Assembly: GCF_015864945.1 (NCBI RefSeq)
Contig: NZ_JADYWF010000001.1
Coordinates: 558,378-622,377, forward strand
Reading direction: 5' to 3'
Origin: Salinibacterium sp. NG253
GTDB taxonomy: Bacteria; Actinomycetota; Actinomycetes; Actinomycetales; Microbacteriaceae
DNA length: 64,000 nucleotides
A program made the position numbers and the translations under genes. The notes under the pieces were generated by a model. The model was not told the origin of the DNA. It saw only the letters and a program-made list of their open reading frames with translations, and did no database searches. Numbering within the stretch: the stretch's first letter is position 1; each line of letters opens with the position of its first letter. This document shows positions 38,545-55,810 of the stretch, piece after piece.

Positions 38545-38552
38545 TTCGGTCA

Positions 38553-39188
38553 ATGCGTCGAGTTATTCGCGCCGGCGCCGCGTTCGGCGCGGCCATGCTA
38601 GCAGCCCTCACGCTGCTCGTGGCCGCGCCCGCGTACGCCCACAACTATCTCGTCGAGAGCACACCCCTTGAGGGCGAGACCCTCACCGTGCTCCCCGACG
38701 AATTCTCGGTCACCACAAACGACACCCTGCTCGATCTCGCTGGCGACGGTGGCGGATTCGCGATTCAGATCTTGGATTCGAATGGTGGGTATTACGGCGA
38801 CGGTTGCTTCACCATCCGCGACGCAACGCTGTCGACCGGCGCGACTCTAGGTGAAGCAGGCGACTACCGGATGCTCTGGCAACTGGTTTCCGCCGACGGC
38901 CACACTGTCTCAGACGAAATCGACTTCACGTGGGAGCCGGATGTCGACCAGACGATCTCCGACCCACTGAGCGGGCCTCCAGCCTGCGGTGGCGGAACGC
39001 TGGAGGAGTCAACTCCCCCACCCGATTCTGCCGACGCGGTGCCGGACGAAGCGGACAGTGAAGCCGCCACAGCAGACGCAGGCACCATCGTGCTCGTGGG
39101 CGGAGCAATCGCTCTGGTCCTGATTGCGGGCGTGGCGATCTTCTTGATCACCGCGAAGCGCAAGAAAGACGAACACGACGCGTCTTAG
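38553..39188 (+). CDS. CopC-domain copper-binding protein
   Basis: Exported, membrane-anchored protein of 211 aa. The signal peptide ends around AYA, exposing the CopC N-terminal histidine in AHNYLVESTP. The family SADGHTVS motif follows near residue 112. An acidic Pro/Glu-rich linker leads to a C-terminal transmembrane helix and a Lys-rich tail. Two extra cysteines (DGCFTI and PACGGG) are unusual for CopC. No CopD domain is fused or adjacent, so it may bind or pass copper rather than transport it. Confidence 0.87.
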   Translation: MRRVIRAGAAFGAAMLAALTLLVAAPAYAHNYLVESTPLEGETLTVLPDEFSVTTNDTLLDLAGDGGGFAIQILDSNGGYYGDGCFTIRDATLSTGATLGEAGDYRMLWQLVSADGHTVSDEIDFTWEPDVDQTISDPLSGPPACGGGTLEESTPPPDSADAVPDEADSEAATADAGTIVLVGGAIALVLIAGVAIFLITAKRKKDEHDAS

Positions 39189-39261: not shown

Positions 39262-40278
39262 TCATCGACAGCCGCAGCTCTCACGAATAGTGAGTTCCAG
39301 CGGAAGAACACGATTGTGGGGCGCTTCCTGGGCCCCCGGAGTTGCGTCAAGAAGAACATCCACTCCGAGCGAGGCCGCCGTATGGAACGGTTGCTGGACG
39401 GTCGTGAGTCGGGGCAAGACGATGCTCGATTCCTTGAGCCCATCGAAAGAAATGAGCGCGAGGTCCTCGGGAATACTGAGCCCCGCCTGCGTGGCTGCGG
39501 TCATGATTCCGAATGCTTGCTCGTCACTATGGACGAAGATTGCCCGCGGGCGGGTGGGTCGCGCAAAAATATCTCGTGCGAGGGCAAAAGCGCTGTAGCG
39601 ATCGAATTCGCTCTCGAAAACCTCGTGGTCTTCGACTTTCATACCTTTTGCCTCAAGAGCATCGCCCCACCCGGCTAGCCGGTCGCTGACGCCATATAGG
39701 TGCGCCGGGCCAGAGAAACACGCAACGGACTCGTACCCGTGGTCGAGCAAATGCGAGGTGGCGGCAAAACCTCCGCCTCGGTTATCAACCAGAATCGCGG
39801 TCGCTCCAAGCTCGCTTGCCGGACGGTCGAAGAACACCAGAGGTGTGTGGTTGCCCTCAAGCACGCTGGAGGTCTCTTCATGGCTTGAACGGCGCTCATC
39901 CGTGCTGCCGACGAAGAGAATCCCCCGCACTTGGTGTTCCATGAACGAGCGAAGGTGGCGCGCTTGTCGCTCGTCGCTATTCATGGCGTTTCCGAGCAGC
40001 AACGAATGACCGCGTGCAAGAGCGGAGTTCTCGACCTCGATGGCAAGCTCGCTGCAGTACGGGTTAGTGATGTCGGAAGCAATGAGCCCCAAGACTGTGC
40101 TGGATGCTGACGCCAAAGCACGAGCCGTGGCATTGGGGCGGTAACCGAGCCGTGCAACCGCATCGAGTACGCGTTGCCTAGTGGGCGCTGCAACATTCCG
40201 AGGGCCGTTGTTCATGACGTAGCTGACAACAGCCGTAGAAGTGCCCGCTTCGCGAGCAACATCGTCTCTGGTTACCAC
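39262..40278 (-). CDS. LacI-family regulator of the ureide/urease operon
   Basis: Repressor of 338 aa with a GTG start. The N-terminal LacI helix-turn-helix and hinge helix are complete (DDVAREAGTSTAVVSYVMNN, RVLDAVARLGYRPNATARALAS), followed by a periplasmic-binding-protein-like effector domain. It is divergent from the 15-gene operon. The two matching palindromes in the shared upstream region are its probable operators. The effector could be a nucleoside, ureide or pathway intermediate; sequence does not tell. Confidence 0.92.
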   Translation of the reverse strand: MVTRDDVAREAGTSTAVVSYVMNNGPRNVAAPTRQRVLDAVARLGYRPNATARALASASSTVLGLIASDITNPYCSELAIEVENSALARGHSLLLGNAMNSDERQARHLRSFMEHQVRGILFVGSTDERRSSHEETSSVLEGNHTPLVFFDRPASELGATAILVDNRGGGFAATSHLLDHGYESVACFSGPAHLYGVSDRLAGWGDALEAKGMKVEDHEVFESEFDRYSAFALARDIFARPTRPRAIFVHSDEQAFGIMTAATQAGLSIPEDLALISFDGLKESSIVLPRLTTVQQPFHTAASLGVDVLLDATPGAQEAPHNRVLPLELTIRESCGCR

Positions 40279-40414: not shown

Positions 40415-40430
40415 ATCTACGCGGGTAGGC
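40415..40430. promoter_or_regulatory. LacI-type operator 1 (lacI-proximal)
   Basis: ATCTACGCGGGTAGGC. Its reverse complement shares 14 consecutive bases with operator 2 (CTACCCGCGTAGAT). The arms match in four of six pairs and the centre is GCGG. It lies ~137 bp upstream of the lacI start codon. Confidence 0.75.
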
Positions 40431-40560: not shown

Positions 40561-40576
40561 ATCTACCCGCGTAGAT
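40561..40576. promoter_or_regulatory. LacI-type operator 2 (over the transcription start)
   Basis: ATCTAC-CCGC-GTAGAT: perfect 6-bp arms around a CG-containing centre, the usual LacI-family operator form. Its position just downstream of the -10 predicts direct repression. Confidence 0.82.
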
Positions 40577-40632: not shown

Positions 40633-41460
40633 GTGGCTCATTCCTCACTCCCCTCGCCCCACCACTACGCACCGACCTGCGCACCAGTTGTCGCGGCTGA
40701 CGTGCCAGCGTGGGTCGCGAAGGCCCAGTCGCACTCTGATCACTTGCTCTCGCTCGCTGGGCCGGTCGCTCATCGTGCCGAGGTCGTCGGTGTCCTCGCC
40801 GACGACGAGACCGACTGGACTTTCGGCAACTTCATGTTGACGTGGTTGGACTCAAGCCAAGCAGTTCGCCGCATCTGGCATCTTCCCGATGCAGCATTCT
40901 TTCTTCGCCTCATCGAGATCGCTTACGCTCCCGTGCTCGACGCTAACCCGTCGTACCGCACATTGCTGACCGATACCAGCCGCATCCAAATGTCGATCAC
41001 AAACGACATTCTCCAGATTCAGCTCGACGGGCTCGTGGAGGACTACACGATGATCCGACACCACGCCCTCATGCTCTTCAGCTCTGCACTCTGGCTCGAT
41101 GAGCCTCAACGGAGCCAATGGCTCGCCCTGTACGACGATCTCGTCACCTACGTCGATTCCCGCCCAGAAGGACGACCCCACGTTGACTCACTCGCAGCGG
41201 TCGAGAGCGCAGCTTTCGCTGACTTCGTCACGTTGGCCCCTCAAACGCTCACCGCTGAAAGCGCCGACGCACTCCTCAACAACCACGAGGCGCTCGCCCA
41301 TGTTCTCGACTACCAGCTTTACGCCGGGGTAGCCATCGGACTCCTGTGGCGCGAGTACCGAGCCCTCGATGAAACAGAGCGAGACGAGTGGTACCGCACC
41401 CAACTTTCCGAACGTTACCTAGACACCGATTATCTGAAGACTGAATGGATGGCACAGTAA
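40633..41460 (+). CDS. Unrecognised 275-aa protein heading the ureide/urease operon
   Basis: Mostly helical soluble protein, no signal peptide or membrane segment, GTG start with AAAGGAA ~10 nt upstream. I recognise no domain. Visible patterns are a His/Pro-rich N-terminus (SPHHYAPTCAP), a central DWTFGNFML segment, an amphipathic helix run with HH (YTMIRHHALMLFSSALW) and a C-terminal WREYRALDETERDEWYR. The histidines and acids could bind a metal or a small polar ligand. Its stop overlaps the amidohydrolase start by 1 nt, implying a fixed stoichiometry or joint function. The pathway around it lacks a recognisable urea-releasing enzyme (allantoicase or ureidoglycolate lyase), so a catalytic role there is a reasonable inference, not a demonstration. 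Confidence 0.8.
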   Translation: MAHSSLPSPHHYAPTCAPVVAADVPAWVAKAQSHSDHLLSLAGPVAHRAEVVGVLADDETDWTFGNFMLTWLDSSQAVRRIWHLPDAAFFLRLIEIAYAPVLDANPSYRTLLTDTSRIQMSITNDILQIQLDGLVEDYTMIRHHALMLFSSALWLDEPQRSQWLALYDDLVTYVDSRPEGRPHVDSLAAVESAAFADFVTLAPQTLTAESADALLNNHEALAHVLDYQLYAGVAIGLLWREYRALDETERDEWYRTQLSERYLDTDYLKTEWMAQ

Positions 41461-42887
41461 TGTCCCACGATCACAGCGCCTCCGCGCCTGCCGAGCAACT
41501 TGACCTCGTCATCACGAACGCAAAGATTCGTTCCGACGACGACGCGCTTTACAACATCGGCATCAAGGGCGGCGTCATCGTCGCAATGTCGAGCAACCTG
41601 CAAGATCTGGGCTACGCGACCGAAACCACAGATGCTGCGGGCCGCTGGGTGATTCCCGGCGCGATCGATTCCCACGCTCACATCAACCAGCGCGCCGACG
41701 AATACAACCACATTCCCGGCCTTGGTCCAGACGACAACTTCTCCGCTGAGTCGCGCGGCGCACTAGCCGGTGGCTGCACGACTGCGCTCAACTACGTACA
41801 GTTCGGCACCCCGTCGCTTCTTGACTCGTTCCACGATGGCCTTGCCGCAGCACGCGCTCAGTCTCAGATCAATGTGATGTTCCACGGCTGCCTCATGAAC
41901 ATGGGCCAGGTTTCGGAAATCGAGCAGGCGACCAAGGAAGGCATGCGCACCTTCAAGATCTTCATGCCCTACCGGGGTGAAGAGGCCAAGAACCTCGGCG
42001 GAATCGGAAGCCTCAACCACGCGCAAATGCGGGAAGCCTTCGCCGCGATCGTCGCGAACGGCGCTCAAGCGTTGGTGCACGCCGAGGACGGCGACATCGT
42101 CGACGCGGCGATGCAAACGGAGAGCACCGCGGGGCTCGACTCGCTCGCAGGGTGGGAACGTTCGCGCCCCACCATTGCCGAAGGGGATGCCGCGTGGACT
42201 GCTCTCTACCTTGCCGAAGAAGCAGGCTGCCAAGTATCGATCGTGCACGTCTCCAGCTTGGAAGCCATCAAAGCTCGGAAGGCTCTGGGGTACCCGGGCG
42301 CGGCGCTCGAATCATGCGTCCACTACATGGTGCTCAGCACTGAGTCGGCAATTGGCCCGGAGGGCAAAGTTGCCCCGCCCATCCGCGACCGCAGTCTTTC
42401 CGACGCCATTACCGAGGCAGTTCTTGCGGGCGAGATCGATTTCTTCGGATCCGACCACAACGAATGGCCAAGTGCCGCAAAGACTGACTGGGAAACTTCC
42501 AAGCCTGGATTGCCCGGCATCGGCCTTATGCTCCCGCTGCTCTTGACGCACCTTGTCGTGGACAACGGCATGAGCATGGAAAGCCTTATCGAACTCACCT
42601 CGCGCAATGCCGCTCTGAGATTCGGCCTCGAAGGCAAAGGAAAGGTCGCAATCGGCATGGATGCTGACCTCGTCATCCTCGAGGAGGGCGAGCGAGTCGT
42701 GCGGATCGAGGATCTTCACTCACCCATCGACTACTCGCCCTACGCCGGCATGACACTGCGGATGTGGCCGAGCGTGACCGTATGCGGCGGCGTCGTCGTC
42801 TTCGCTGATGGCACGTTCCCACGCGAGGACTTCCGTGGCGAAATGCTGAACGATCGCTTCCGGACAGACCCCGCACTCGCGGTCTGA
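41460..42887 (+). CDS. Cyclic amidohydrolase (hydantoinase / dihydropyrimidinase / allantoinase type)
   Basis: Binuclear-metal amidohydrolase of 475 aa that opens a cyclic amide (hydantoin-like) ring. The full metal site is visible: HAH (His72, His74), the carbamylated lysine Lys166 in FKIFMPY, His207, His263 and Asp332 in GSDHN. Start 41460 (1-nt overlap with the preceding stop, GGATGG upstream) is preferred over an ATG 15 nt earlier. Family membership is firm; the substrate is not. Urease, hydroxypyruvate isomerase and tartronate semialdehyde reductase downstream favour a ureide such as allantoin or hydroxyhydantoin over dihydropyrimidines. Confidence 0.9.
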   Translation: MSHDHSASAPAEQLDLVITNAKIRSDDDALYNIGIKGGVIVAMSSNLQDLGYATETTDAAGRWVIPGAIDSHAHINQRADEYNHIPGLGPDDNFSAESRGALAGGCTTALNYVQFGTPSLLDSFHDGLAAARAQSQINVMFHGCLMNMGQVSEIEQATKEGMRTFKIFMPYRGEEAKNLGGIGSLNHAQMREAFAAIVANGAQALVHAEDGDIVDAAMQTESTAGLDSLAGWERSRPTIAEGDAAWTALYLAEEAGCQVSIVHVSSLEAIKARKALGYPGAALESCVHYMVLSTESAIGPEGKVAPPIRDRSLSDAITEAVLAGEIDFFGSDHNEWPSAAKTDWETSKPGLPGIGLMLPLLLTHLVVDNGMSMESLIELTSRNAALRFGLEGKGKVAIGMDADLVILEEGERVVRIEDLHSPIDYSPYAGMTLRMWPSVTVCGGVVVFADGTFPREDFRGEMLNDRFRTDPALAV

Positions 42888-42922
42888 TCCTCATCATCAC
42901 CAACCAAGAAGGAGCACACTAC

Positions 42923-43882
42923 ATGCCACGGTCAATCATCCTCGATGTCGACACAGGAACTGACGACGCGATTGCAATCATGATGGCAGCGCTATCGCCA
43001 GAGATCGACCTCGTTGCGTGCACCACCGTGTGGGGCAATCGTCCGGTCGAGAATACGACTGACAACACGCTTCGCGTGCTCGACTACATCAACCGCTCCG
43101 ACATCCCTGTCTATCGGGGACTCGATGAGCCATTTGGCCCCATCGGCGTACCGCAGCCCAGCCCTTCGGATGACCACAGCGGCGGAAAGATGCACCCGAA
43201 GGAACTCGACCTCCCGCCCGCCACCTCGGTTGCTCAAACACAGGGGGCTGTCGAGTGGTTAGTCGAAACGCTGCGGGCGCGCACGGAACCCATCACGCTG
43301 GTGCCAGTCGGTCCGCTGACCAACATCGCTGCAGCGATTACCCTCGATCCCTCTATCATCGACAAGGTTGACGAGATTGTGATCATGGGAGGCGCACACG
43401 CTTTCGGCAACGCGACACCGTCGGCCGAGTCGAACATCTGGCATGACCCCGTAGCTGCTGACGTGGTTTTCAAGGCTGGCTTCAAGCGAATTGTTCTGGT
43501 ACCTCTCGACGCGACGCACGACGCACTCGTCACCGGAGCACAGGCATCCGAACTTCACGCTCTCAGCACCCCTGCTGGACTGGCGACCGCGATCTGCATT
43601 CAGCAGCGCATCGTCGCCCACGATGAAAGCCAGCCGCAGGCGATTCCCGACAGCGCCCCCATTCACGATGCCGTCTGCATCGCGTATTTGCTCGACCCCG
43701 CTGTCCTTCCTCTTAACCACCTTCACGTCGGCATCGAGACAACAGGAGTGCGCACGTTCGGCAGGACTGTGATCGACGTTCGTCACCGAGGCATAGAAGA
43801 ACCGAACGCCTACGTCGCATTGACGGCGAACGCTGACGTCTTCTATCGACTGCTGAAGGAGTGTGTCTCTATCCAGCGATAA
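42923..43882 (+). CDS. Inosine/uridine-preferring-type nucleoside hydrolase
   Basis: N-ribohydrolase of 319 aa. The calcium-binding DVDTGTDDA motif is at residues 8-16, and conserved VGPLTNIA, IVIMGGA and the C-terminal HDAVCIAYLLDP follow. It cleaves the N-glycosidic bond of a ribonucleoside to base plus ribose. A strong AAGGAG precedes the ATG. Its place between the amidohydrolase and the importer suggests the imported molecule, or one of its forms, is a nucleoside. A second, more distant member of the family lies at 56.5 kb. Confidence 0.92.
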   Translation: MPRSIILDVDTGTDDAIAIMMAALSPEIDLVACTTVWGNRPVENTTDNTLRVLDYINRSDIPVYRGLDEPFGPIGVPQPSPSDDHSGGKMHPKELDLPPATSVAQTQGAVEWLVETLRARTEPITLVPVGPLTNIAAAITLDPSIIDKVDEIVIMGGAHAFGNATPSAESNIWHDPVAADVVFKAGFKRIVLVPLDATHDALVTGAQASELHALSTPAGLATAICIQQRIVAHDESQPQAIPDSAPIHDAVCIAYLLDPAVLPLNHLHVGIETTGVRTFGRTVIDVRHRGIEEPNAYVALTANADVFYRLLKECVSIQR

Positions 43883-43934
43883 CCACTGCTCTTCACGTTT
43901 CGAATATTTCGCTCCACCTAAGCAAGGGAAAACA

Positions 43935-45257
43935 ATGAAACGCAACATCGCAACACTGAGCACGGCGGTCGGGACGGTAGCCATTATGGCTCTCGCCGGA
44001 TGTTCTGCCGGCTCCACCCCCACCATCGCAGGCTGCGAGGACGGCGTGACGGAACTCTCCGTACTCCGCGCAGAAAACAACTCCCCCACTGACGAGCAAT
44101 TGGATGCCTACACAGCAGCCAACGAATGCGTCATTTTCACGGTCGACGAGGTTCCGTTCGGCAACTTGGCAGCGAAGATCGCGGTGCTCGCACCGTCGTC
44201 GAACCCGCCAGACATTGTCGGATTTGATGCTCCTAGCACCGCCTCCTACGCATCGCAGGGCTTCTTGCTTCCCCTTGACGATTACCTGCCCGATGGCTGG
44301 TTTGACGACGTGACGTCAGCGACGTTGACAGAGAACTCGTGGGACGGCCAGGTTTACTCGCCCGGCAACGAGCAAGACACTCTCTCCTTGTACTTCAACA
44401 AGGAGCTGACTGATGCTGCCGGCATCACACCTCCCACCTCTCTTGACACCGCGTGGACATGGCCAGAGGCGCAAGCCGCAATGCTGACCTGCCAGGTATC
44501 GGCAACCGAGGCTGCTGGGTCGACCGTGTACGGTCTCGCACCGTCACGACTCGGAGACGGCACCCCGGGAACGTCGTACCGCGATCAGCTCTTCTTGCGC
44601 AGCATGGGAGACCCCACTGCTCCGGAATCGTCGTCGGCCTACAAGACGTTCTATGCAATCTCTGACGACGGCACCACTGTCGATGGCTGGCTGAACACGC
44701 CAGAGGCTATCGAGGGTGCGACCTTCTACCAGAACTTGTTCGAAGGCCCGGATGCTGTGACATCGAAGACTGGTCTTCCCAATGCACTGATCGATGGCAA
44801 AGCATGCTTCGACCTCGAAGTGAGCTCCAACGCTACGACTCTTACTAGCGCGGGAGTGGACTTCGGTGTGAGCCCAACGCCGTATCTCGTTACTCCTGTT
44901 GTGCACACCGGCGCTGTTACATTCGGCGTCACCGCACGTTCGAACAACGCAGAGGCAGCGGCCACGGCCGTTGTTGCAATGGACACCGGTGACCAGTACC
45001 TCGAGTGGGTTGAGAACAACCTCCGGATTCCAGTGTTGGTGTCGACGACCGAAGCACTGCCTTCGCTCAGCGAAGCACCGTTGAACATTCCCGTCGAAGA
45101 GATCCAGGAGTGGGGCGTACCGCGTCCTCCCGGACCGCACTTCGACGCGTATGACCTCTACGTCACTGCAGCGTTAAAGAACATCGCATACGGAGCGGAT
45201 CCGAAGACTGAGCTCGATCAGGCAGTCGCCAAGCTCGACCCGATCCTCTCGAAGTAG
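43935..45257 (+). CDS. ABC transporter substrate-binding lipoprotein (family 1)
   Basis: Binding protein of 440 aa. ATG 43935 follows AAGGGAAAA; a GTG 72 nt earlier lies inside the previous gene and would spoil the signal peptide. Lipobox ALAGC. The mature part has the family 1 pattern (PDIVGFDAPSTASYASQGFLLPLDDYLPD, TDAAGITPP, TAWTWPEAQAAM), like CUT1 sugar binders but with extra cysteines (AGCEDG, NECVIF, LTCQV, KACFD). Context predicts a nucleoside or ureide ligand instead of a plain sugar. Confidence 0.88.
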   Translation: MKRNIATLSTAVGTVAIMALAGCSAGSTPTIAGCEDGVTELSVLRAENNSPTDEQLDAYTAANECVIFTVDEVPFGNLAAKIAVLAPSSNPPDIVGFDAPSTASYASQGFLLPLDDYLPDGWFDDVTSATLTENSWDGQVYSPGNEQDTLSLYFNKELTDAAGITPPTSLDTAWTWPEAQAAMLTCQVSATEAAGSTVYGLAPSRLGDGTPGTSYRDQLFLRSMGDPTAPESSSAYKTFYAISDDGTTVDGWLNTPEAIEGATFYQNLFEGPDAVTSKTGLPNALIDGKACFDLEVSSNATTLTSAGVDFGVSPTPYLVTPVVHTGAVTFGVTARSNNAEAAATAVVAMDTGDQYLEWVENNLRIPVLVSTTEALPSLSEAPLNIPVEEIQEWGVPRPPGPHFDAYDLYVTAALKNIAYGADPKTELDQAVAKLDPILSK

Positions 45258-45273
45258 AACAGGAAACATCGTC

Positions 45274-46233
45274 ATGCATTCTGGCCCGATCGATTCCACG
45301 CCGCTCGCGGTCAGAGACCTGGGCGGGAGCACTTCGCTCCCGCCCAGGCGCAGATCGAAGAGCGCGATGGGGAAGGGCGCACTGCCTGCGCTTGCCTTCC
45401 TCACTCCGTTCCTTCTGCTTCTGCTGGTCTTCCAATACATTCCGCTGGCAGTCATGGCTCGCAGCAGCGTGCTCGACTACAGCCTTTTCAACCCCGACAA
45501 CGCAACCTTCGTCGGTGCGGACAACTTCATCCGGATCTTCACGGATGCAGAGACGATCCAGTCGCTGCTGATCACGTTCGCGTTCATTCTCGGTGTCCTC
45601 GTTCTTGTAGTCCCCGCGTCTTTCGCGCTCGCAGTTTTCCTGAACGGAAAGTTACCCGCTCGGGCTCTCGTACGCACCATGATTTTTCTTCCCGTTGTTA
45701 CTTCGTCGGTGGTCGTCGCGACACTCTGGACGTTCCTGCTCAATGAGACCGGCTTGATCAACTCAGTGCTCGCGACAGTAGGAATTCCGCCCGCAGGTTT
45801 CCTCACCGACACCACCCAAGCACTTCCCGCCATCATCGTGATGACCGTCTGGCAACAAGTGGGTCTCGCCACCGTTCTCTTTCTCGGCGGACTGCAAGCA
45901 GTTCCCGCCGAGCTCAGCGAGGCAGCGCATATGGATGGAGCCGGCCCCCTCCGTCGCACGCTCAGCATCACTCTTCCGCTGCTTTCCCGCACGACCCTGT
46001 TCATCGTCGTCGTGATGACTGTCTTCGCACTCCAAGCATTTGCGCCGGCGTACATCATGACGGGCGGTGCCCCTCAGGGCACGACGAACCTCATCATTTA
46101 CCACATCTACAAGACGGCGTTCATTCTTCAGCAGCCGGGCTACGCCTCAGCAATGGCGCTCGTCGTGCTTGCTTTCGCCATCATCATCAGCTTGATCCAG
46201 ATGCGGTTACTTCGCACTCGTTGGAACTATTAG
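45274..46233 (+). CDS. ABC transporter permease (CUT1, MalF-like)
   Basis: Permease of 319 aa with a ~35-residue cytoplasmic N-terminus and six helices. The EAA loop ELSEAAHMDGAGPLRRTLSITLP is clear. It pairs with the next permease. No ATPase gene occurs in the operon, so a shared MsmK-like ATPase is needed. Confidence 0.92.
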   Translation: MHSGPIDSTPLAVRDLGGSTSLPPRRRSKSAMGKGALPALAFLTPFLLLLLVFQYIPLAVMARSSVLDYSLFNPDNATFVGADNFIRIFTDAETIQSLLITFAFILGVLVLVVPASFALAVFLNGKLPARALVRTMIFLPVVTSSVVVATLWTFLLNETGLINSVLATVGIPPAGFLTDTTQALPAIIVMTVWQQVGLATVLFLGGLQAVPAELSEAAHMDGAGPLRRTLSITLPLLSRTTLFIVVVMTVFALQAFAPAYIMTGGAPQGTTNLIIYHIYKTAFILQQPGYASAMALVVLAFAIIISLIQMRLLRTRWNY

Positions 46234-46242
46234 GAGGACGCC

Positions 46243-47121
46243 ATGACTACTCAACGCATAGCGGAACCAACTCAGCTTCGCCGAATCCCCCGGACTATCG
46301 CTCGCTTCGGCGTCTCGTTCGTGGTGATTGCCATCATCGTGGGCGCATTCCTCCTGCCCTACCTCTGGATGGTGTCGTCTGCATTCAAAAACCAGACCGC
46401 AATCTTCGATGATCTCAATCCGCTCTCGTGGAAGGTGTTTCTTCCCGTCGGCGGAACGATCGACAACTTCGTGGCGCTTTTCGAAAAAGGAATCGGTCTC
46501 GCTCTTGTCAATTCCCTCATCGTCGCGTTCATCCAAGTGGGCGGCACCCTGGTGGTCTGCACCCTCGCCGCCTACGCGTTGACAAGAATTTCGTTCAAAG
46601 GCCGCGGCGTGGTCTTTGCGGTGATCCTCGCAACATTCATGCTTCCGGCAGAAGCGCTTGTCGTGCCGATGTATGGGGTAATTGCTGGCCTCAACTTGCA
46701 AGACACGCTCCTCGCGGTCGCTCTTCCTTGGGTCTCGAGCGTTTTCGGGCTCTTCCTCTTGAAGCAAGCCTTCGAAGAGATCCCGATGGAGTTGGATGAG
46801 GCGGCACGACTCGATGGTGCGGGACACTTCCGGGTCTTCTGGTCGATCATCCTTCCCAACGTGCGCACATCGTTGGCAACTCTGTGCCTCGTGACCTTTT
46901 TGTTCTCATGGAACGCTTTCCTCTGGCCGTTGACGGTCGTGCAAAGTTCTCAGAACCAGGTCATTCAGGTCGCCATTGCTCAGTCGGTATCTGCGGGTGA
47001 GCTGCCGAACTGGGGCTTGACGTTCGCGGGCGCTGCGGTGGCCACAGTGCCGCTGATCCTCCTCTTTCTCTTCGCTCAGCGCTTCTTCGTGCAGGGCCTC
47101 GCTTCTTCCGGACTCAAGTAA
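46243..47121 (+). CDS. ABC transporter permease (CUT1, MalG-like)
   Basis: Second permease, 292 aa, six helices, EAA loop ELDEAARLDGAGHFRVFWSIILP, and a C-terminus FVQGLASSGLK like the MalG group. GGAGG precedes the ATG, 9 nt after the first permease. Confidence 0.93.
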   Translation: MTTQRIAEPTQLRRIPRTIARFGVSFVVIAIIVGAFLLPYLWMVSSAFKNQTAIFDDLNPLSWKVFLPVGGTIDNFVALFEKGIGLALVNSLIVAFIQVGGTLVVCTLAAYALTRISFKGRGVVFAVILATFMLPAEALVVPMYGVIAGLNLQDTLLAVALPWVSSVFGLFLLKQAFEEIPMELDEAARLDGAGHFRVFWSIILPNVRTSLATLCLVTFLFSWNAFLWPLTVVQSSQNQVIQVAIAQSVSAGELPNWGLTFAGAAVATVPLILLFLFAQRFFVQGLASSGLK

Positions 47122-47130
47122 GGACATCGC

Positions 47131-47982
47131 ATGAACTCCCCCCAACGTTCCACCTACGTCGCCAATTGTTCGCTGCTGTTTCAGGAGCTGCCCCTCCTGC
47201 AGCGGCCCGCCGCCGCTTATAACGCTGGTTTCGATTCGATCGAATATTGGTGGCCGTTCGATTCTGCTTCGCCCACTGATAGCGACGTCGACAAGTTCGT
47301 CGGGGCTATTGACGATTCCGGAGCGAAGCTTGTCGGACTCAACTACTTTGCTGGTGATCTTTTCGGGCCCGATTGCGGCGTCGTCTCTCTTCCTGACCGC
47401 CAAGCAGAATTTCGTGACAGCGTGGAAATCGCGACGGCCATCGGTTCGCGTCTCAACGTGGGAGCGTTCAACGCGCTGTATGGAAACCGAGTTGAGACCT
47501 CGACTCCAGAAGCACAGGACGAGCTCGCGATCCAGAGCCTCGGCTTTGCCGCCGACGCTGCCGCCACCATCGGGGCGACAGTCCTCATCGAAGCTGTCAG
47601 CGGCCCCAAGCCTTATCCGCTACGTACCGCAGCAGACGCGATCGCGGTGGTAGATCGCGTCCGGGCATCCGGACACCCGAATGTTGCTTTCTTGCTCGAC
47701 ATTTTCCACTTAGCTGCGAACGGGGATGACGTTTCCGCCGCTATCAAGAGTCACGCCTCATCCGTTGCGCATGTACAAATCGCGGACTTCCCTGGCCGAG
47801 GAGAACCCGGCTCCGGAACGCTCGATCTAGACCGCTATCTCAGCGAATTGACCGAGCAGGGCTATACCGGGGCGGTCGCGCTCGAGTACAAGCCGTCCAC
47901 TGGCGACACTCAAGCCAGTATCGCCAATCTCAATGGTTTCCCATCGATCACAGTTTCAGTAACGAGAGGTTTCACACAATGA
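47131..47982 (+). CDS. hyi: Hydroxypyruvate isomerase
   Basis: TIM-barrel isomerase of 283 aa that interconverts hydroxypyruvate and tartronate semialdehyde. It follows the E. coli Hyi pattern closely: ANCSLLFQELPLLQR at the N-terminus, LPDRQAEFRDSVEIA, the ligand segments LIEAVSGPKPYPL and LLDIFHL, HVQIADFPGRGEPGSG and VALEYKP at the C-terminus. It overlaps the reductase gene by 4 nt, as hyi and glxR pair in allantoin/glyoxylate operons. Glyoxylate carboligase (gcl), which makes tartronate semialdehyde from glyoxylate, is not in this operon. Confidence 0.9.
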   Translation: MNSPQRSTYVANCSLLFQELPLLQRPAAAYNAGFDSIEYWWPFDSASPTDSDVDKFVGAIDDSGAKLVGLNYFAGDLFGPDCGVVSLPDRQAEFRDSVEIATAIGSRLNVGAFNALYGNRVETSTPEAQDELAIQSLGFAADAAATIGATVLIEAVSGPKPYPLRTAADAIAVVDRVRASGHPNVAFLLDIFHLAANGDDVSAAIKSHASSVAHVQIADFPGRGEPGSGTLDLDRYLSELTEQGYTGAVALEYKPSTGDTQASIANLNGFPSITVSVTRGFTQ

Positions 47983-48875
47983 CAAAGATTGCATTCATCG
48001 GTCTCGGCATCATGGGAGCGCCCATGGCGGCAAACTTGGTCGCCGCCGGCCACGACGTAACAGGATTTAACCGCAGCCGTGCCGCCGTCGACACGTTCAT
48101 TTCACAGGGCGGGTCAGGCGCACAGAGCATCGAAGAGGCGATCGCCGGCGCCGAGATTGTGGTGACAATGCTGCCGGACTCCCCCGATGTCGAATCTGTA
48201 TTGAGCGGCGAAAGCGGCGTCTTCGCACATGTGCCGCAGGGCACCCTCGTCATCGACTTTTCGACAATTCGACCGGATGTTGCCATCCGGCTGGCCGAAG
48301 AAGCCGCGGCCGTGGGAGTCCAGATGCTCGATGCTCCAGTTTCGGGTGGTGAAGCAGGAGCTATCGAGGGTGTTCTCTCGGTCATGGTCGGAGGATCAGC
48401 AGAGGCCTTCGCTCAGGCCTCTGCCGTGTTCGACGCCGTTGGCTCAACCATCGTTCACGTGGGGCCGTCAGGTTCGGGCCAGACGGTGAAGGCCGCCAAT
48501 CAGCTCATTGTGGCCGGCACGATGGAACTCGTCGCCGAAGCTCTCGTCTTTCTCGAGGCTCACGGCGTAGACATGGAACCGGCAGTGAAGGTGCTCTCGG
48601 GAGGTCTTGCCGGCAGCACAGTGCTCTCGCGGAAAGCTCCGAACATGCTCTCGCGAAACTTCGCACCGGGCTTCCGAGTGACCTTGCACGATAAAGACCT
48701 GGGAATCGTCACGGCTGCGGCACGGGAAGCCGGCGTCGCTATTCCGCTCGGTGCGGTGGTGGCGCAGCTCATGGGATCGCTCAAAGCCCGCGGCGACGGC
48801 GACCTCGATCATTCGGCATTGTTCACCCTCGTCAGTGAACTCTCCGGCCGCAGTGACGATCAGACCGAGGGATAA
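47979..48875 (+). CDS. glxR: Tartronate semialdehyde reductase (2-hydroxy-3-oxopropionate reductase)
   Basis: Beta-hydroxyacid dehydrogenase of 298 aa that reduces tartronate semialdehyde to D-glycerate with NAD(P)H. The dinucleotide fold GLGIMGAPMAANL is at residues 8-20, the substrate motif DAPVSGGEAGA at ~118-128, and the catalytic lysine is Lys171 in GQTVKAANQ. Next to hyi, the GlxR/GarR assignment is preferred over 3-hydroxyisobutyrate dehydrogenase. Confidence 0.9.
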   Translation: MTKIAFIGLGIMGAPMAANLVAAGHDVTGFNRSRAAVDTFISQGGSGAQSIEEAIAGAEIVVTMLPDSPDVESVLSGESGVFAHVPQGTLVIDFSTIRPDVAIRLAEEAAAVGVQMLDAPVSGGEAGAIEGVLSVMVGGSAEAFAQASAVFDAVGSTIVHVGPSGSGQTVKAANQLIVAGTMELVAEALVFLEAHGVDMEPAVKVLSGGLAGSTVLSRKAPNMLSRNFAPGFRVTLHDKDLGIVTAAAREAGVAIPLGAVVAQLMGSLKARGDGDLDHSALFTLVSELSGRSDDQTEG

Positions 48876-48878
48876 GTC

Positions 48879-49931
48879 GTGAGCCTGCCGTCACGGTCTG
48901 CCACGACCACACGCATGAACCGCTCCTGGGGCGTTCTCGGTGCCATCGTTGCGCTCCACGTCGTCGGGTTCGGCGCGCTCGTTCTCGCGAGCGCGCCATC
49001 AGCTACGGACTCCTCGGGCGCAGCGAGCGGGTTGGCCGTCGCTCTCGGAATCGGGCTCACCGCCTACGCGTTAGGAGTTCGTCACGCTTTCGATGCCGAT
49101 CACATCGCCGCCATCGACAACACGACCCGACGACTCGCGACGTCGCCCCGCGAAGCGCGCGGCACCGTCGGTTTTTGGTTCGCGCTGGGGCATTCGACGA
49201 TCGTCACGGTCCTGTGCGTGCTTCTTATGGCATTCGGGCAGGCATTGGAAACGGCCATGGCAGCTGACGGCTCAGCGGTTCAGTTCACCACGACTGTCTA
49301 CGGCCCCACGATTTCAGGAGTCTTCCTGCTCGTCATCGCCGCTGCCAACATTATTGCGCTCACCCGTTCCCATAGTCACGGAGTTCGTGGCCCCGTCACG
49401 TGGCTACTCGGACGTTTCGATAAGGCTGTGGATCGACCAAGTCGAATGTACGTAGTCGGTCTGTTGTTCGGACTCGGCCTCGATACCGCCACAGAGATCT
49501 GGCTTCTCGTCCTGTTGGGCGCAGCCGCTCTCTCGTCTACTTCGCTGTGGGCTGTGCTCGCGCTTCCCATTCTGTTCGCAGCAGGAATGACCGCAATGGA
49601 TACCCTCCAAGGCCTCATGGCGAGCCGCGTCTACCGACCAGGCTCGCGCTCCTCACGCGTGCAACGAGCCTTCAGCGTCGGAATGACTGTCGTCGCTGTC
49701 ACCGTCGCGGTTGTTGTCGGTGTCGTGCAGCTCGCGTCGGCGGTGACTGCATCCGGAGGAACTGCGGGTGTACTGAATTGGATCTCGGGTGCCGAAGTGT
49801 CATCTCTTGGCTTCGTACTAGCGGGGCTCATCCTTGTTGGCTGGCTTGTTGTGCTGGCAGTCGGACGATCACACGGCGATCGCACCTCTGCATTCGTTGC
49901 TCCTCAGCCGATGATGAAAGAAGGCGTCTGA
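48879..49931 (+). CDS. Nickel/cobalt permease, NiCoT (HoxN/NixA) family
   Basis: High-affinity nickel uptake protein of 350 aa with about eight helices and a GTG start. The signature [14 protein letters not shown] (~residues 68-81), LGHSTIVT and [11 protein letters not shown] are all present. It sits directly before ureA with its stop overlapping the ureA start, so nickel uptake is co-expressed with the nickel enzyme urease. Confidence 0.94.
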
Positions 49932-50233
49932 TGCATCTCACTCCTGCCGATACCGAGAAACTATTGCTCAGCGTTGCTGCGATGGTCGCTCGGGAGCGAC
50001 TCGACCGCGGGGTCATCCTTAATTACCCGGAGAGCATTGCGTTGCTCAGTAGCTGGGTAATCGAACGCGCCCGCGACGGCGCACTCGTCGCCGACCTCAT
50101 GGACGAAGGCCGGGAGGTGCTCACTCGAGCCCAAGTGATGCCCGGTGTCGCCGACATGATCCGCGACGTTCAAGTAGAAGCAACCTTTCCCGACGGCCGC
50201 AAGCTCGTCACCTTGCATCACCCCATCCAGTAA
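49931..50233 (+). CDS. ureA: Urease gamma subunit
   Basis: Small structural subunit of urease (urea to ammonia and carbamate), 100 aa as usual. Typical sequence: [34 protein letters not shown]-type segment ([17 protein letters not shown]) and [18 protein letters not shown] 49931 overlaps the nickel permease stop by one base. Confidence 0.97.
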
Positions 50234-50247
50234 GAGGGAGATAGATC

Positions 50248-50598
50248 ATGGCTAGTGCAAGCTCCGAAGGACCAGGCGCCTTCAGGATTCGCCCCGGAAC
50301 CATAGAGCTCAATGCCGACCGCATGCCGGCCGAGCGAATTCGTGTTGTCTTCCTCAACGCTGGTGATCGGCCAATCCAGATCGGATCCCATCTTCACCTG
50401 CCAGACGCTAACACCGCCCTCGAATTCGATCGCGAAGCGGCCCACGGCTTCCGGCTCGATATCCCCTCGGGCACATCGCAACGGTTCGAACCAGGTGCGT
50501 CTCGAGAACTCGACGCGGTAGCAATTCAGGGCGCGAGGCGCATTCCCGGCCTCCAGATTTCGCACGCAGGCAAGGAGCAACTCGATGGTATCCATTGA
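50248..50598 (+). CDS. ureB: Urease beta subunit
   Basis: Structural subunit of 116 aa. Conserved [47 protein letters not shown] and the [11 protein letters not shown] strand are present. GGGAG precedes the ATG, and its end overlaps ureC by 14 nt. Confidence 0.97.
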
Positions 50599-52288
50599 CC
50601 GACAGCGCTACGCAGCAATTTATGGTCCTACTGCGGGCGACCAGATACGCCTCGGCGACACTGACCTCTGGATCGAAATCGAGCGCGATCTCACCGTGGG
50701 CGGAGAAGAAGCCGTGTTCGGTGGCGGCAAATCGATTCGCGAGTCTATGGCTCAGGGCGTGCGCACTCGCGCCGAAGGCGCGCTAGATACCGTCATTACG
50801 AATGCCATAGTGCTCGACTGGTGGGGCATTCAGCGAGCGGATGTCGGCATCAAAGATGGACGAATCGTTGCGTTAGGCCGTGCAGGAAACCCTGACATCG
50901 CCGACGGCGTCCATCCCCTACTCGTGATCGGCCCGTCGACTGACGTGATCTCGGGAGAGGGTCGCATCCTCACCGCCGGGGGTATTGATTCTCACGTTCA
51001 CCTCATCTCCCCCTCCCAAATTCATGAAGCGCTCGCCACAGGAATCACTACCGTGGTCGGTGGCGGCACCGGGCCTTCCGAGGGATCAAAAGCCACCACT
51101 GTCACCCCCGGCGCGTGGCATCTGGAAACCATGCACCGCGCCATGGATCGACTGCCTGTCAACCTGCTCTTGCTCGGCAAGGGAAACACCGTCTCGCCCG
51201 AAGCCCTCAAGGAACAGGCGTTAGCCGGTGCTGGTGGTTTCAAGATTCATGAGGATTGGGGCGCGACACCTGCAGCGATCAATGCGGCTCTTGAGGCGGC
51301 CGACACCTTCGGTCTACAGGTCGCTTTGCACTCCGATTCGCTCAACGAAGCCGGCTATGTGCAGTCCACGATCGATGCGATCGGCGGACGCGGCATCCAC
51401 GCATTTCATGTTGAAGGTGCTGGCGGCGGTCACGCGCCCGATATTTTGTCGATCGCGTCTCTGCCCAATGTCATCCCGGGATCAACGAACCCGACGCTCC
51501 CCCACACCATAAATACTGTTGCGGAACACCTCGACATGCTGATGGTGTGCCATCACTTGAATGCGTCGGTTCCGGAGGATCTCGCTTTCGCGGAGTCCAG
51601 AATCCGGGCGACAACGATCGCGGCAGAAGACATCCTCCACGACATCGGAGCGCTGTCGATCACGTCGTCTGACTCCCAGGCAATGGGGCGAATTGGTGAA
51701 GTCATTGCGCGCACGTGGCAGGTTGCCCACGTCATGAAGGCACGGCGCGGGTCATTGGGCGCCGCGCACCCCGCCGACAACGAGCGCGCACGGCGCTACA
51801 TCGCTAAATACACAATCAACCCCGCTATCGGTCACGGAATCGATAAAGAAGTAGGGAGCATCGAGCCAGGCAAGCTGGCTGACTTGGTGCTGTGGGATCC
51901 ACGATACTTCGGCATTAGGCCCGAAGTTGTCATTAAGGGAGGCGGCTTAGCGTGGGGCGCTCTCGGCGATCCCAACGCCTCAATCCCTACGCCACAGCCG
52001 GTGCTCATGCGACCGTCATTTGCGGATGCCATTGGCGACCGACTCTCACTCTCGTTCGTCGCGCAGGCCGCAATTGATGACGGCTTTGAGGAACGGATGG
52101 GGCTCGGGCGCACCGTCGTCGCCGTGCAGTCCACTCGGGAAGTGACCAAGCATGACCTGAAGAACAATGACACGCTCCCTAAGATCGATATTCGTCCAGA
52201 CACCTTCGCGATCTCGATCGATGACGAACTTGTCGTGCCCGCTCCCGTCGATACCCTGCCCCTCGCTCAGCTCTACACGATGTTCTAA
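50585..52288 (+). CDS. ureC: Urease alpha subunit (catalytic)
   Basis: Nickel-containing catalytic subunit of 567 aa, full length. All active-site residues are present: His137 and His139 (SHVHL), carbamylated Lys220 and His222 (FKIHEDWG), His249 (ALHSDS), His275 ([13 protein letters not shown]), Cys322/His323/His324 in the mobile flap (VCHHL) and Asp363 (SSDSQ). Nearby positions depart from the most common form: ISPSQ follows the first histidines where many ureases have ICPQQ, and LLLLGKGN replaces NLGFTGKGN. It is divergent but should be active. Confidence 0.97.
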
Positions 52289-52962
52289 TGGTCGACTCGG
52301 GGACGCTCGCGATGCTCCTCGCTGATGCGCGCCTGCCCACCGGCGGACACACTCACTCGGCGGGAATGGAGCCTGCTTTGCTTGGTGGGCTTAAGCGAGA
52401 CGACATCCCCTCGTTCCTTGCCGGGAAAACAAGCTCGACAACACTCGTCGAAGCCGGAACGGCGGTAGTAGCACGGCATCATTTCATCAGCGAAGCCGCG
52501 CCGCCAGAAATGGACGCACTAATCGCGGCGTGGGCGGCGAGAACCCCGAGCCCGGCATTACGCGACGCGTCCAGGCTCCTCGGGCGCGGCTACACAAGGA
52601 TTGGCCGCACCGTGTGGCCGAGCAGCGCATCAATTGCGTTCTGCGCTCAACTGCGGCAGCCACCCCGGGCTGTGGTTCTCGGTGCGATCGCGGCAACTGC
52701 CCAGATGAAGCCAGCCGACCTGGTTCGTCTTGTCGTCTACGAAGAGGTTCAGAATGCGGCATCCGCTGTGCTGAAGCTCGACCCGATCGACCCGGCCACA
52801 GTGGTTACCTGGGTGCTCAACGCCTGCGAAGTAGCCGAACCTTTTGTCCATCAGCTCTCGCTTATCACTACGCCTGAGGCGATCCCCGCCTTGGGCGCTC
52901 CGCAAGCCGAAGGGTGGGCCGAGGCCCACGCTGTTATGAAGAAGAGGTTGTTCCGTGCTTGA
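52288..52962 (+). CDS. ureF: Urease accessory protein UreF
   Basis: Helical chaperone of 224 aa that joins UreD and UreG in the urease activation complex and controls the fidelity of nickel insertion. It has the UreF opening ([19 protein letters not shown]) and [21 protein letters not shown]. Its ATG shares a base with the ureC stop, and its end overlaps ureG by 8 nt. Confidence 0.93.
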
Positions 52963-53728
52963 AAACAACGCCCCCTCCCGCGCACTACGTCTGGGAATAG
53001 CCGGTCCCGTGGGAACTGGAAAGTCGTCGCTCATCGCACTTCTGTGTCGTTCTCTGGGTGAGGAACTGCGACTCGGTGTCATCACCAACGACATCTATAC
53101 GGATGAGGATGCGCGCTTCCTGCGATCCGCTGGAGTGCTGGATCCCGAAAGGATCCGCGCAGTGGAGACAGGCGCGTGCCCGCACACCGCAATTCGTGAT
53201 GACGTGACAGCGAACCTGCTGGCTGCCGAAGATCTTGAAGCCGACTTCGCTCCCCTCGACATCGTCATCATCGAGTCCGGCGGTGACAACTTGACCGCGA
53301 CGTTCTCTCCCGCGCTCGTGGATGCACAGATTTTCGTGCTCGATGTCGCCGGCGGCGGCGACGTTGCGCGCAAGGGCGGCCCGGGCATTTCCCGCGCCGA
53401 TCTGCTCGTAGTAAACAAGACAGACCTCGCGCCTTACGTCGGCGTTGATGTAGAGATGATGGTCTCTGACGCAACTCACGCGCGCGAAGGTCGGCCTGTT
53501 GTTGCTCTGTCGCGAACGGATGACAATTCGATTGCCCAGTTACGGCTGTGGGTGCTCGAAATGCTCGCCGCCTATCGCTCCGGAACTCACAGCCCCCAAG
53601 ACCCCGGTCCGATGGCGCCGCATAGTCACCTCGATGAGGGCGGCCAAGCTGTGGTTCACACCCACAGTCCCAGTTCAGACCACAACCACGACCACGACCA
53701 CGACCACGACCATCCCGTGAGAGCTTAA
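52955..53728 (+). CDS. ureG: Urease accessory GTPase UreG with His-rich C-terminal tail
   Basis: SIMIBI-class GTPase of 257 aa that powers nickel insertion. P-loop GPVGTGKSS, nickel-binding CPH (in [12 protein letters not shown]), IESGGDN and NKTD are visible. The last ~36 residues carry ten histidines, ending in an alternating His-Asp run made by a gaccac hexanucleotide repeat (53678-53713). UreE is absent from the operon, and this tail may store or deliver nickel in its place. Mycobacterial UreG proteins carry a His-rich stretch at the N-terminus instead. GTG start. Confidence 0.95.
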
Positions 53729-53737
53729 GGCCTTCGC

Positions 53738-54460
53738 GTGCAGTCTGAGGCGGCTTCGCGAGTCACGCGAGTCGCGGTAAACGCGAACACGTCAGGAAAC
53801 GCGCGCGTGGAGTTAAGGGCAGGGATACTCATACCGCGACTCATCTCGTGCACGGATACCTCGGCGGATGTCGCTCTCGTCGCCGGGGGCGCGCTACTGC
53901 TCGGCGGCGACACTGTTGCGATCGAAATTACGGTCGGCGCGGGTTGCCAGCTCACGCTCGAAGACATTGGCGGAATGGTTGCGTACGACGGTGAGGGACG
54001 GTCCGCAACCATGACGATTCAGGTCCGGCTGGAGGTTGGAGCCCGATTGTCGTGGGCAACGCTCCCGTTCATCATTGCCGACGGCGCCTGCGTCGAGCGG
54101 GTCCTCGACGTCGAGTTGGCTGACGGCGCTGTCGCGCTCATTCGGGAAACTCTTGTCTTAGGGCGCGAAGGGGAAAAAGGCGGTCGGGTGGTAACCCGAA
54201 CCTCCGTCTCGGCAAACGCTGTCCCCGTGTTGATTGAGCAGCAAGATTTCGACGGTAACGCACCTGTGTGGGGTCATCTTGGTGGCGAACGTGTCATGGA
54301 TACCGTCTTGTTTGCTGGCGCGCGGGTACCCGCGTCGTCCATCGATTCCGCTGCAGTCGTGCTCGACTTCGAGGAGCCGGGCGGCCTTGCACGGTGGCTT
54401 GGACGAGAAACCCACCTCTCGCCGCTCGATGCCGTGTGGCGAGATTGGGCATTGGCGTAG
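53738..54460 (+). CDS. ureD: Urease accessory protein UreD (UreH)
   Basis: Scaffold of the activation complex, 240 aa, GTG start 9 nt after ureG. Family segments: GGALLLGGDTVAIEITVGAGCQLTL, SWATLPFIIADGA, RETLVLGREGEKGGRV and LIEQQDFDGNAPVWG. It is the last gene of the operon, followed by a strong hairpin. Confidence 0.92.
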   Translation: MQSEAASRVTRVAVNANTSGNARVELRAGILIPRLISCTDTSADVALVAGGALLLGGDTVAIEITVGAGCQLTLEDIGGMVAYDGEGRSATMTIQVRLEVGARLSWATLPFIIADGACVERVLDVELADGAVALIRETLVLGREGEKGGRVVTRTSVSANAVPVLIEQQDFDGNAPVWGHLGGERVMDTVLFAGARVPASSIDSAAVVLDFEEPGGLARWLGRETHLSPLDAVWRDWALA

Positions 54461-54473: not shown

Positions 54474-54508
54474 CTGAGGCCGCCACCCGCAATGGGTGAC
54501 GGCCTCAG
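54474..54508. terminator. Bidirectional terminator between ureD and clpP
   Basis: Long stem ctgaggccg-caccc / gggtg-cggcctcag with one unpaired base in each arm and a short loop, between the convergent ureD and clpP 3' ends. Confidence 0.8.
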
Positions 54509-54527: not shown

Positions 54528-55202
54528 CTAGCTCGTGATCGCCGGAAGCGTCTTGCGGCTCGTGAGCACCTGGTCGATGAGACCGTACTCCATTGCCTCA
54601 GCTGCGCTCAGAATCTTGTCGCGCTCGATGTCCTTGTTGATTTCTTCAGGAGTGCGGTTCGAGTGGAACGACAGGGTCTCTTCGAGCCATCCGCGCATGC
54701 GCAGGATCTCGCGAGCCTGAATCTCGATGTCCGAAGCCTGGCTTGAGCCTTCAGAACCACCGCTCGGCTGGTGGATCAGGATGCGAGCGTTGGGCAGAGC
54801 CAAACGCTTTCCCTTGGTTCCACCGGCGGTGATCACGGCAGCAGCCGAAGCAGCCTGACCGAGAACAACGGTCTGAATCTGAGGACGAATGTACTGCATC
54901 GTGTCGTAGATCGCCGTCATTGCGGTGAACGATCCACCGGGTGAGTTGATGTACATCACGATGTCGCGGTCAGGGTCTTGGCTCTCGAGAACGAGAAGCT
55001 GAGCCATAACGTCGTCAGCGGAAGCGTCGTCGATCTGCACACCCAAGAAGATGATTCGGTCTTCGAACAGCTTCGCGTACGGGTCTTGACGCTTGTAGCC
55101 ATAGGCCGTGCGCTCTTCGAACGTCGGCAAGATGTAGCGAGCATCAGCATCCGGACGACCAATGCCGGCGGGAGCCTGTGCTCCGAGGTTAAAGTTCTCC
55201 AT
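54528..55202 (-). CDS. clpP: ClpP protease subunit (second of the pair)
   Basis: Serine peptidase subunit of 224 aa. Catalytic serine in GQAASAAA and histidine in LIHQPSGG; the SPGGS oxyanion-region motif is present. It begins 2 nt after the stop of the first clpP gene. In actinobacteria two different ClpP rings form one active hetero-tetradecamer that works with ClpX or ClpC1. Compared with its partner it has a longer N-terminus and a SEGSSQASD insert near the histidine. Confidence 0.96.
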   Translation of the reverse strand: MENFNLGAQAPAGIGRPDADARYILPTFEERTAYGYKRQDPYAKLFEDRIIFLGVQIDDASADDVMAQLLVLESQDPDRDIVMYINSPGGSFTAMTAIYDTMQYIRPQIQTVVLGQAASAAAVITAGGTKGKRLALPNARILIHQPSGGSEGSSQASDIEIQAREILRMRGWLEETLSFHSNRTPEEINKDIERDKILSAAEAMEYGLIDQVLTSRKTLPAITS

Positions 55203-55204
55203 AA

Positions 55205-55810
55205 TTAGTCCTTCTTGCCGGTTGCGTTGTCTTCAGTTCCGCCGCCGCCAACTACGTCGGAGGCGAATTCGCGGAGGTGATCGACGAAGCCATATTCGAG
55301 AGCTTCTTTGGCCGTGAACCAGTTATCACGGTCGTTGTCGATGAGAACCTGCTCGACGCTCTTGCCTGTTTGCTCGGCGGTGAGCTCGGCCATGCGCTTC
55401 TTCATATCGAGGATGACGCCAGCCTGAGTCTGGATGTCTGCAGCGGTTCCACCGAATCCACCCGACGGCTGGTGCAGGAGCACACGCGCGTTGGGGGTGA
55501 TGTAGCGCTTGCCCTTGGTGCCCGAAGAGAGCAGGAACTGCCCCATCGAGGCGGCAAGGCCAATGCCGACGGTGACGATGTCGTTCGGCACGAACTTCAT
55601 CGTGTCGTAGATCGCCATTCCCGCGGTGATGGATCCACCGGGTGAGTTGATGTAAAGGTAGATGTCGCGCTTGGGATCCTCTGCGGCGAGCAGCAAGATC
55701 TTTGCGCAGATCTCGTTCGCGTTTGCATCGCGCACCTCTGAGCCGAGCCAGATGATGCGGTCCTTGAGGAGTTGGTCGAAGATGCTCGAGACCAATGCCG
55801 GTTGGGCCAT
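55205..55810 (-). CDS. clpP: ClpP protease subunit (first of the pair)
   Basis: Serine peptidase subunit of 201 aa. Catalytic serine in GLAASMGQ, histidine in [11 protein letters not shown] and aspartate region in DNDRDNW. It is the first gene of the clpP-clpP operon; its promoter must lie in the 119-bp divergent gap before the TPR gene. clpX does not follow as in most relatives, because the accessory block lies between. Confidence 0.96.

Follow-up and report, generated by a model that had tools for sequence, protein, structure and literature searches.

What would an operon break down that joins a nucleoside hydrolase and a cyclic amidohydrolase to a tartronate semialdehyde reductase and a urease? 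Such an operon lies in the window analysed here, a 64,000-nt stretch of contig NZ_JADYWF010000001.1 of Salinibacterium sp. NG253 (all coordinates are positions within this stretch). An initial annotation had read it as a 15-gene operon under LacI control that takes a ureide or its riboside to ammonia and, via glyoxylate, to glycerate. The 15 genes on one strand, their order and the divergent LacI gene were all borne out by open frames and by Pfam and NCBIfam families. The idea of a unit that opens a cyclic ureide also stands, with its LacI gene, its operator-like sites and a urease that would burn urea made inside the cell, but the leg from glyoxylate to glycerate does not. As the reductase GlxR exceeds the cutoff of its family model, no glyoxylate carboligase does so, and a glycerate kinase is present, the most economical interpretation is that tartronate semialdehyde and urea both come directly from the ring. 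A urea-producing ureide pathway is likely and the exact ring is uncertain. Our tentative answer, held at somewhat short of an even chance, is that the locus is a cassette under LacI control for the breakdown of an oxidised pyrimidine ring; the substrate, the lyase role of the first protein, the binding by LacI and every reaction are predictions from sequence.

The operon and its conserved core

The 15 open genes are intact, all lie on the plus strand between 40633 and 54460, and are separated by gaps of −16 to +52 bp, given a binding-protein start at 43935. The frame of that gene opens at 43863, and the later start is suggested by MKRNI and a lipobox-like LAGC. UreB and UreC were named from their open frames and conserved position, not from a family search. 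The features are as follows.

39262..40278, minus strand: LacI-family regulator, divergent from the operon and travelling with it; 61% identical in genome G627, 98% in two sister strains
40416..40429: operator-like LacI-type palindrome, distal copy, TCTACGCGGGTAGG
40562..40575: operator-like LacI-type palindrome, proximal copy, TCTACCCGCGTAGA, just 5' of the first gene; the same motif precedes both G627 units
40633..41460, plus strand: unclassified protein of 275 amino acids, conserved core; candidate urea-releasing lyase
41445..42887, plus strand: cyclic amidohydrolase of the hydantoinase/dihydropyrimidinase/allantoinase group, own subfamily, conserved core
42923..43882, plus strand: nucleoside hydrolase (IU_nuc_hydro; nearest UriH/RihA/RihB), Salinibacterium version only
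43935..45257, plus strand: ATP-binding cassette (ABC) solute-binding lipoprotein, SBP_bac_1 (Pfam/NCBIfam)
45274..46233, plus strand: ABC permease 1, UgpA-like, BPD_transp_1 (Pfam/NCBIfam)
46243..47121, plus strand: ABC permease 2, UgpE-like, BPD_transp_1 (Pfam/NCBIfam)
47131..47982, plus strand: hydroxypyruvate-isomerase-like protein, Hyi (AP_endonuc_2); TIGR03234 below cutoff
47979..48875, plus strand: tartronate semialdehyde (2-hydroxy-3-oxopropionate) reductase GlxR, conserved core; TIGR01505 over cutoff
48879..49931, plus strand: nickel permease NicT/NicO (Pfam/NCBIfam)
49931..50233, plus strand: ureA, urease gamma (Pfam)
50248..50598, plus strand: ureB, urease beta (open frame and conserved place; 75% identical to the G627 copy)
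50585..52288, plus strand: ureC, urease alpha (open frame and conserved place; 82% identical to the G627 copy)
52288..52962, plus strand: ureF (Pfam)
52955..53728, plus strand: ureG, with a His/Asp-rich tail (Pfam)
53738..54460, plus strand: ureD (Pfam)
54474..54508: hairpin common to empty sites, between ureD and clpP2; possible two-way terminator

The gene order is identical in Salinibacterium sp. SWN248 and SWN167 (L005 and L006, where the compared DNA ends inside ureC), whose first proteins are 96% identical to that of the window, and it is kept through ureD in L009 (G762, probably the same strain as SWN248). With the window's own genome included each time, the first protein was found in 4 of the 398 genomes searched in the family and in 1 of the 396 searched in the phylum. 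At E 1e-60, the amidohydrolase was found in the same four family genomes and in G544, among the phylum genomes in the window's own only, and in no plasmid. The G544 protein (37% identical) was rejected as an ortholog; it is nearest to allantoinase models, below their cutoffs, and lies beside an SDR gene. As three of the four operon-bearing genomes share one genus, they represent two independent sightings rather than four.

The second sighting is in G627, a member of another genus in the same family. Its unit has LacI (61% identical), the first protein (56%), the amidohydrolase (76%), GlxR (65%), ureABCFGD (46–83%) and the nickel permease (40%). The nucleoside hydrolase, the sugar-type importer and Hyi are all absent from the unit, which is adjoined by an ABC importer whose binding protein is NMT1/THI5-like. 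The conserved core, found in two genera, is thus the unclassified protein, the amidohydrolase, GlxR and ureABCFGD. The nucleoside hydrolase, importer and Hyi, which the initial annotation had counted in its pathway, fall outside the core. As the core is kept in a second genus without those three, its four enzymes match the four steps proposed below. Also adjoining this lean cassette (L007 1126–3742; G627:C19) are a RibD_C reductase, a Pterin_bind (dihydropteroate-synthase-like) gene and a D-2-hydroxyacid dehydrogenase on the opposite strand.

The cassette is flanked by clpX, a YcnI-like gene and copC (35713–39188) on one side and by clpP2-clpP1 (54528–55810) on the other, where the YcnI and ClpP names are those we presume. 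Seven genomes of the genus lack the first protein. In each of the three examined (G537, G736 and G588), the alignments of copC and clpP2 end approximately 90–140 bp from each other, while the window has the LacI gene and the 15-gene operon, approximately 15.3 kb, between them. As copC and clpP2 are direct neighbours in these operon-less sister genomes, the operon and its LacI gene look to have been gained or lost as a single piece. The hairpin beside clpP2 is also kept beside ureD, and may terminate transcription from either side, that of ureD and that of clpP2. No tested flanking gene (clpX, copC and clpP among them) was found in the G627 stretches L007 and L034. Promoter and terminator scans of the operon returned sites no more numerous than in shuffles.

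A sequence upstream of the G627 importer, ATCTACGCGCGTAGAT, has near-copies upstream of the G627 unit and of the first gene in the window. When the pattern TCTACSCGSGTAGA was used to search seven genomes with one mismatch allowed, exactly two places were returned in each of the four operon-bearing genomes, always at the operon or G627-importer sites, and none in the operon-less G537, G632 and G672. A reversed control pattern returned 0–3 places per genome. As far as the pattern indicates, the regulon would consist of this operon alone, plus the importer in G627, and the LacI-family protein presumably binds these putative operators.

Two further gene sets lie nearby in the window. A second nucleoside hydrolase (56515–57471, plus strand), 3' of clpP, is nearest to RihC and approximately 34% identical to the copy in the operon; it is also present, 87–88% identical, in the three operon-less sister genomes examined. 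At 29973–35510, on the minus strand, a GH15 (glucoamylase-like) gene, the window's second sugar-type binding protein, two more open frames and a ROK-family gene resemble a second sugar-uptake operon.

A proposed route from the ring to urea and glycerate

In Salinibacterium, a riboside would be imported by the sugar-type ABC importer, with an ATPase supplied from elsewhere, and the nucleoside hydrolase would release its base; in G627, the free base would enter by the NMT1-type importer. The amidohydrolase would then open the base between N3 and C4 to give a 3-ureido C3 acid, and the first protein would cut the C–N bond of this acid to release urea and tartronate semialdehyde. Hyi may hold tartronate semialdehyde and hydroxypyruvate in balance while GlxR reduces the semialdehyde to glycerate for a housekeeping glycerate kinase, and the urease, served by the nickel permease, would convert the urea to ammonia. 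The most likely bases appear to be 5-hydroxyuracil (isobarbiturate) or uracil glycol. On chemical grounds, uracil glycol opened at N3–C4 would give 2,3-dihydroxy-3-ureidopropanoate, from which the C–N cut would yield urea and tartronate semialdehyde, and the atoms balance (C4H6N2O4 + H2O -> C4H8N2O5 -> C3H4O4 + urea). By similar reasoning, 5-hydroxyuracil would reach the same products via its keto form with one more water.

GlxR exceeds the TIGR01505 cutoff of 340.75 in all three copies scored (347 bits in the window, 345.8 in L005 and 352.5 in the G627 stretch L007), and its closest solved chain, 1vpd, is a tartronate semialdehyde reductase. Glycerate kinase was found in 10 of 11 genomes, including all four that carry the operon. 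Glyoxylate carboligase exceeded its cutoff in none of the 11, although it did so in 1 of 14 control genomes, and so formation of the semialdehyde from glyoxylate is unlikely. Weaker carboligase matches were present in all 11 genomes; the three in the window's genome score over their own cutoffs as acetolactate synthase (1041 bits), a PRK06112-type, acetolactate-synthase-like protein (858 bits) and pyruvate dehydrogenase (988 bits). An AllA-type ureidoglycolate lyase (PF04115) was likewise found in none of the 11 genomes, with E. coli positive as a control. The glyoxylate leg of the initial annotation falls with these two results. Allantoicase (PF03561) gave no match in the 11 genomes, but also none in the 14 controls, and the allantoate amidohydrolase AllC (M20) was not among the cassette proteins scanned, the genomes not having been searched for it.

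The ureC gene was found in 5 of the 11 genomes, the four with the operon and G632. In G632, the stand-alone urease (L031, G632:C1:198000-214000; UreC 78% identical) adjoins a Peripla_BP_5 binding protein and BPD_transp_2 (branched-chain-type) permeases, a layout that we take to be a urea importer. There is no urea-type importer among the cassette genes, and this difference from G632 fits with urea that is made inside the cell. The UreG C-terminal tail is rich in His and Asp, and the end of the G627 UreG is likewise His-rich. A ureE gene is not among the cassette genes (the genome itself was not searched for one), and the His-rich tail may substitute for UreE as a nickel store.

The best models for the amidohydrolase score 225–230 bits, and it lies under the cutoff of every NCBIfam model among the best 25 of 54. 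The dihydropyrimidinase models were not reached (TIGR02033, 218 bits against 393; PRK13404, 230 against 647). In alignments to 1gkr, 3e74 and 1nfg, the HxH, Lys, His, His and Asp positions, presumably the dinuclear-metal ligands of cyclic amidohydrolases, are conserved. Its APP(I/V)R stretch is like that of L-hydantoinase, and it has a Tyr-containing FKIFMPYRG where D-hydantoinase has FKVFMAYRG and E. coli allantoinase FKCFVATCG. Judged by these scores and alignments, it would best be called a subfamily of its own.

The first protein has no match in Pfam, NCBIfam or PDB sequences and no relative in plasmids or, in one scan, viral contigs. Its ratio of non-synonymous to synonymous substitution rates, 0.07 against SWN248 and 0.24 against G627, indicates a real protein under purifying selection. 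A low-confidence structure model based on three near-identical sequences (the window, L005 and L006) is all helical, with a mean predicted local distance difference test score of 44.8. A profile search of 297 genomes of the order at E 0.1 returned 13 genomes, namely its own and 12 with short, chance-like matches (best E 0.0018). We infer, by elimination, that this protein is the urea-releasing C–N lyase.

In P. aeruginosa, according to the available excerpts of PMC12694930, GlxR has a much lower specificity for hydroxypyruvate than for its other substrate, taken here to be tartronate semialdehyde, and Hyi accelerates the carboligase reaction, possibly by limiting tautomerisation. By analogy with that effect, Hyi might have a helper role in the Salinibacterium operon.

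Several points weigh against an oxidised pyrimidine as the substrate. The first protein lacks a recognisable family or fold, and was given the lyase step by elimination only. The amidohydrolase is below all model cutoffs among the best 25, and in alignment carries Pro where hydantoinases carry an Asn that presumably has a role in them. GlxR clears its cutoff by a small margin only, and enzymes related to it can act on semialdehydes other than this one. Hyi scores 230 bits against the TIGR03234 cutoff of 353, which no protein exceeded in the 11 genomes. The weaker carboligase matches were named one by one in the window's genome only, not in the other ten. On chemical reasoning, 5-hydroxyuracil would have to adopt its keto tautomer before it could be opened, and a nucleoside hydrolase would find uracil glycol a poor leaving group. 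Among the open-licence literature matches listed, the excerpts available hold no paper that joins these genes or describes such a route.

More specifically, the cassette may embody an undescribed route in which a uracil that is oxidised or modified, with damaged RNA or the 5-hydroxyuridine of tRNA and rRNA turnover as its source, is ring-opened and then cleaved to urea and tartronate semialdehyde by a new enzyme family, a proposal that we regard as possible but rather doubtful. If it is true, a nucleoside would feed glycolysis via glycerate and all of the ring nitrogen would leave through urease, and bacteria would have a further way to regain carbon and nitrogen from nucleosides that have been oxidised or modified. 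A protein without a known family would gain a function, and the neighbouring importer in each of two genera would be assigned to the same compound. The cassette is compact, with four core enzyme activities and a clear operator-like site.

Other explanations for the operon

The alternative that survives best, although we consider it unlikely, is a ring of the hydantoin type, for example 5-hydroxyhydantoin or its riboside. This would be opened to ureidoglycolate and split by the first protein into urea and glyoxylate, with GlxR acting on glyoxylate or on a semialdehyde derived from it. The logic of the operon would be unchanged, hydantoinases belong to the amidohydrolase group, and the ring-opened product would be true ureidoglycolate, leaving a single unassigned enzyme to be supplied. 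The lack of carboligase over cutoff and of AllA in the 11 genomes argues against it, as do GlxR, which scores best as a tartronate semialdehyde reductase, and Hyi, which has no role without tartronate semialdehyde; the hydantoin reading gains in likelihood if GlxR reduces glyoxylate. Even with a hydantoin ring, a urease that serves internally made urea, has a nickel permease of its own and is placed next to a LacI gene would be an unusual design.

Use of allantoin or allantoate, in which the amidohydrolase would be an allantoinase and the first protein would free urea twice to leave glyoxylate, is quite improbable. Allantoinase models are among the best matches of the amidohydrolase, but the top two score 225 and 229 bits against cutoffs of 358 and 631, and all three allantoinase cutoffs among the best 25 models were missed by more than 100 bits. 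Hyi and GlxR do occur together with allantoin use in P. aeruginosa, but the cluster there, in the available excerpts of PMC12694930, includes gcl, and none exceeds its cutoff here. The missing AllA counts against allantoin as well, as does, weakly, the missing allantoicase, for which the 14 controls gave no match either. Moreover, two steps would be demanded of one protein, and the nucleoside hydrolase would be left without a part.

Little more can be said for a ring that yields hydroxypyruvate, such as 5-hydroxy-5-hydroxymethylhydantoin, whose product Hyi would convert for GlxR; we rate it about as improbable as allantoin. It would explain Hyi directly and would make glyoxylate carboligase unnecessary, but the G627 unit has no Hyi. 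The best Hyi-like gene in G627, outside the unit near DAO and Ldh_2 genes, scores higher as a 2-oxo-tetronate isomerase (298 bits) than with TIGR03234 and has no operator-like site, although at 292 bits as a hydroxypyruvate isomerase it could still serve.

Least probable of all is a patchwork in which genes for the uptake of sugars or nucleosides share an operon by chance with an ordinary set of urease genes and no pathway joins them, which would suit the absence of the nucleoside hydrolase, sugar-type importer and Hyi from the G627 unit and the stand-alone urease of G632, but not the first protein, amidohydrolase, GlxR and urease together under the same operator-like site in two genera, the urea-type importer seen beside the G632 urease and not in the cassette, or the joint position of LacI gene and operon between genes that adjoin each other in three sister genomes. 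Like allantoin and the patchwork, ordinary dihydrouracil is ranked below an oxidised pyrimidine.

Comparison with known systems

The closest counterpart in the use of a ureide as food is the gcl-hyi-glxR-glxK cluster (P. aeruginosa PA1498–PA1502; E. coli allantoin regulon), in which, as far as the source excerpts extend, Hyi and GlxR also feed glycerate. Unlike that cluster as described there, the cassette is without gcl over cutoff and has a urease, a nickel permease, a nucleoside hydrolase, a LacI gene and the unclassified protein.

In the reductive pyrimidine pathway (dihydropyrimidinase and beta-ureidopropionase), a cyclic amidohydrolase also opens a pyrimidine-derived ring. However, the products of that pathway are beta-alanine, ammonia and CO2 rather than urea, while the cassette has a urease and no carbamoyl hydrolase. 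Pyrimidine nitrogen does leave as urea in the URC uracil pathway of yeasts and some bacteria, which uses the URC1 and URC4 families, but neither family was matched by the operon proteins that were scanned against Pfam. In the barbiturase (oxidative pyrimidine) pathway, the ring is opened to a ureido acid that is split into urea and a C3 acid, which is malonate, and barbiturase probably belongs to a different family from the cassette amidohydrolase.

The operon nucleoside hydrolase resembles the pyrimidine nucleoside hydrolases UriH, RihA and RihB in its IU_nuc_hydro family (265 bits), its C-terminal His-Asp and its N-terminal Asp motif, where DVDTGTDDA aligns to DCDPGHDDA of RihB; we take this DxDxGxDDA to be the metal/ribose motif. 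It differs from them in falling below the cutoffs of all four NCBIfam models, and from RihB in the loop aligned to IHGDTGLDG and in the base-side helix. These base-site differences were not used as a hint of an unusual base, because the base-side helix also differs between RihA and RihB.

Set beside these systems, the cassette is of the nucleobase/ureide catabolic operon type, with a real chance that its route and one of its enzyme families are new.

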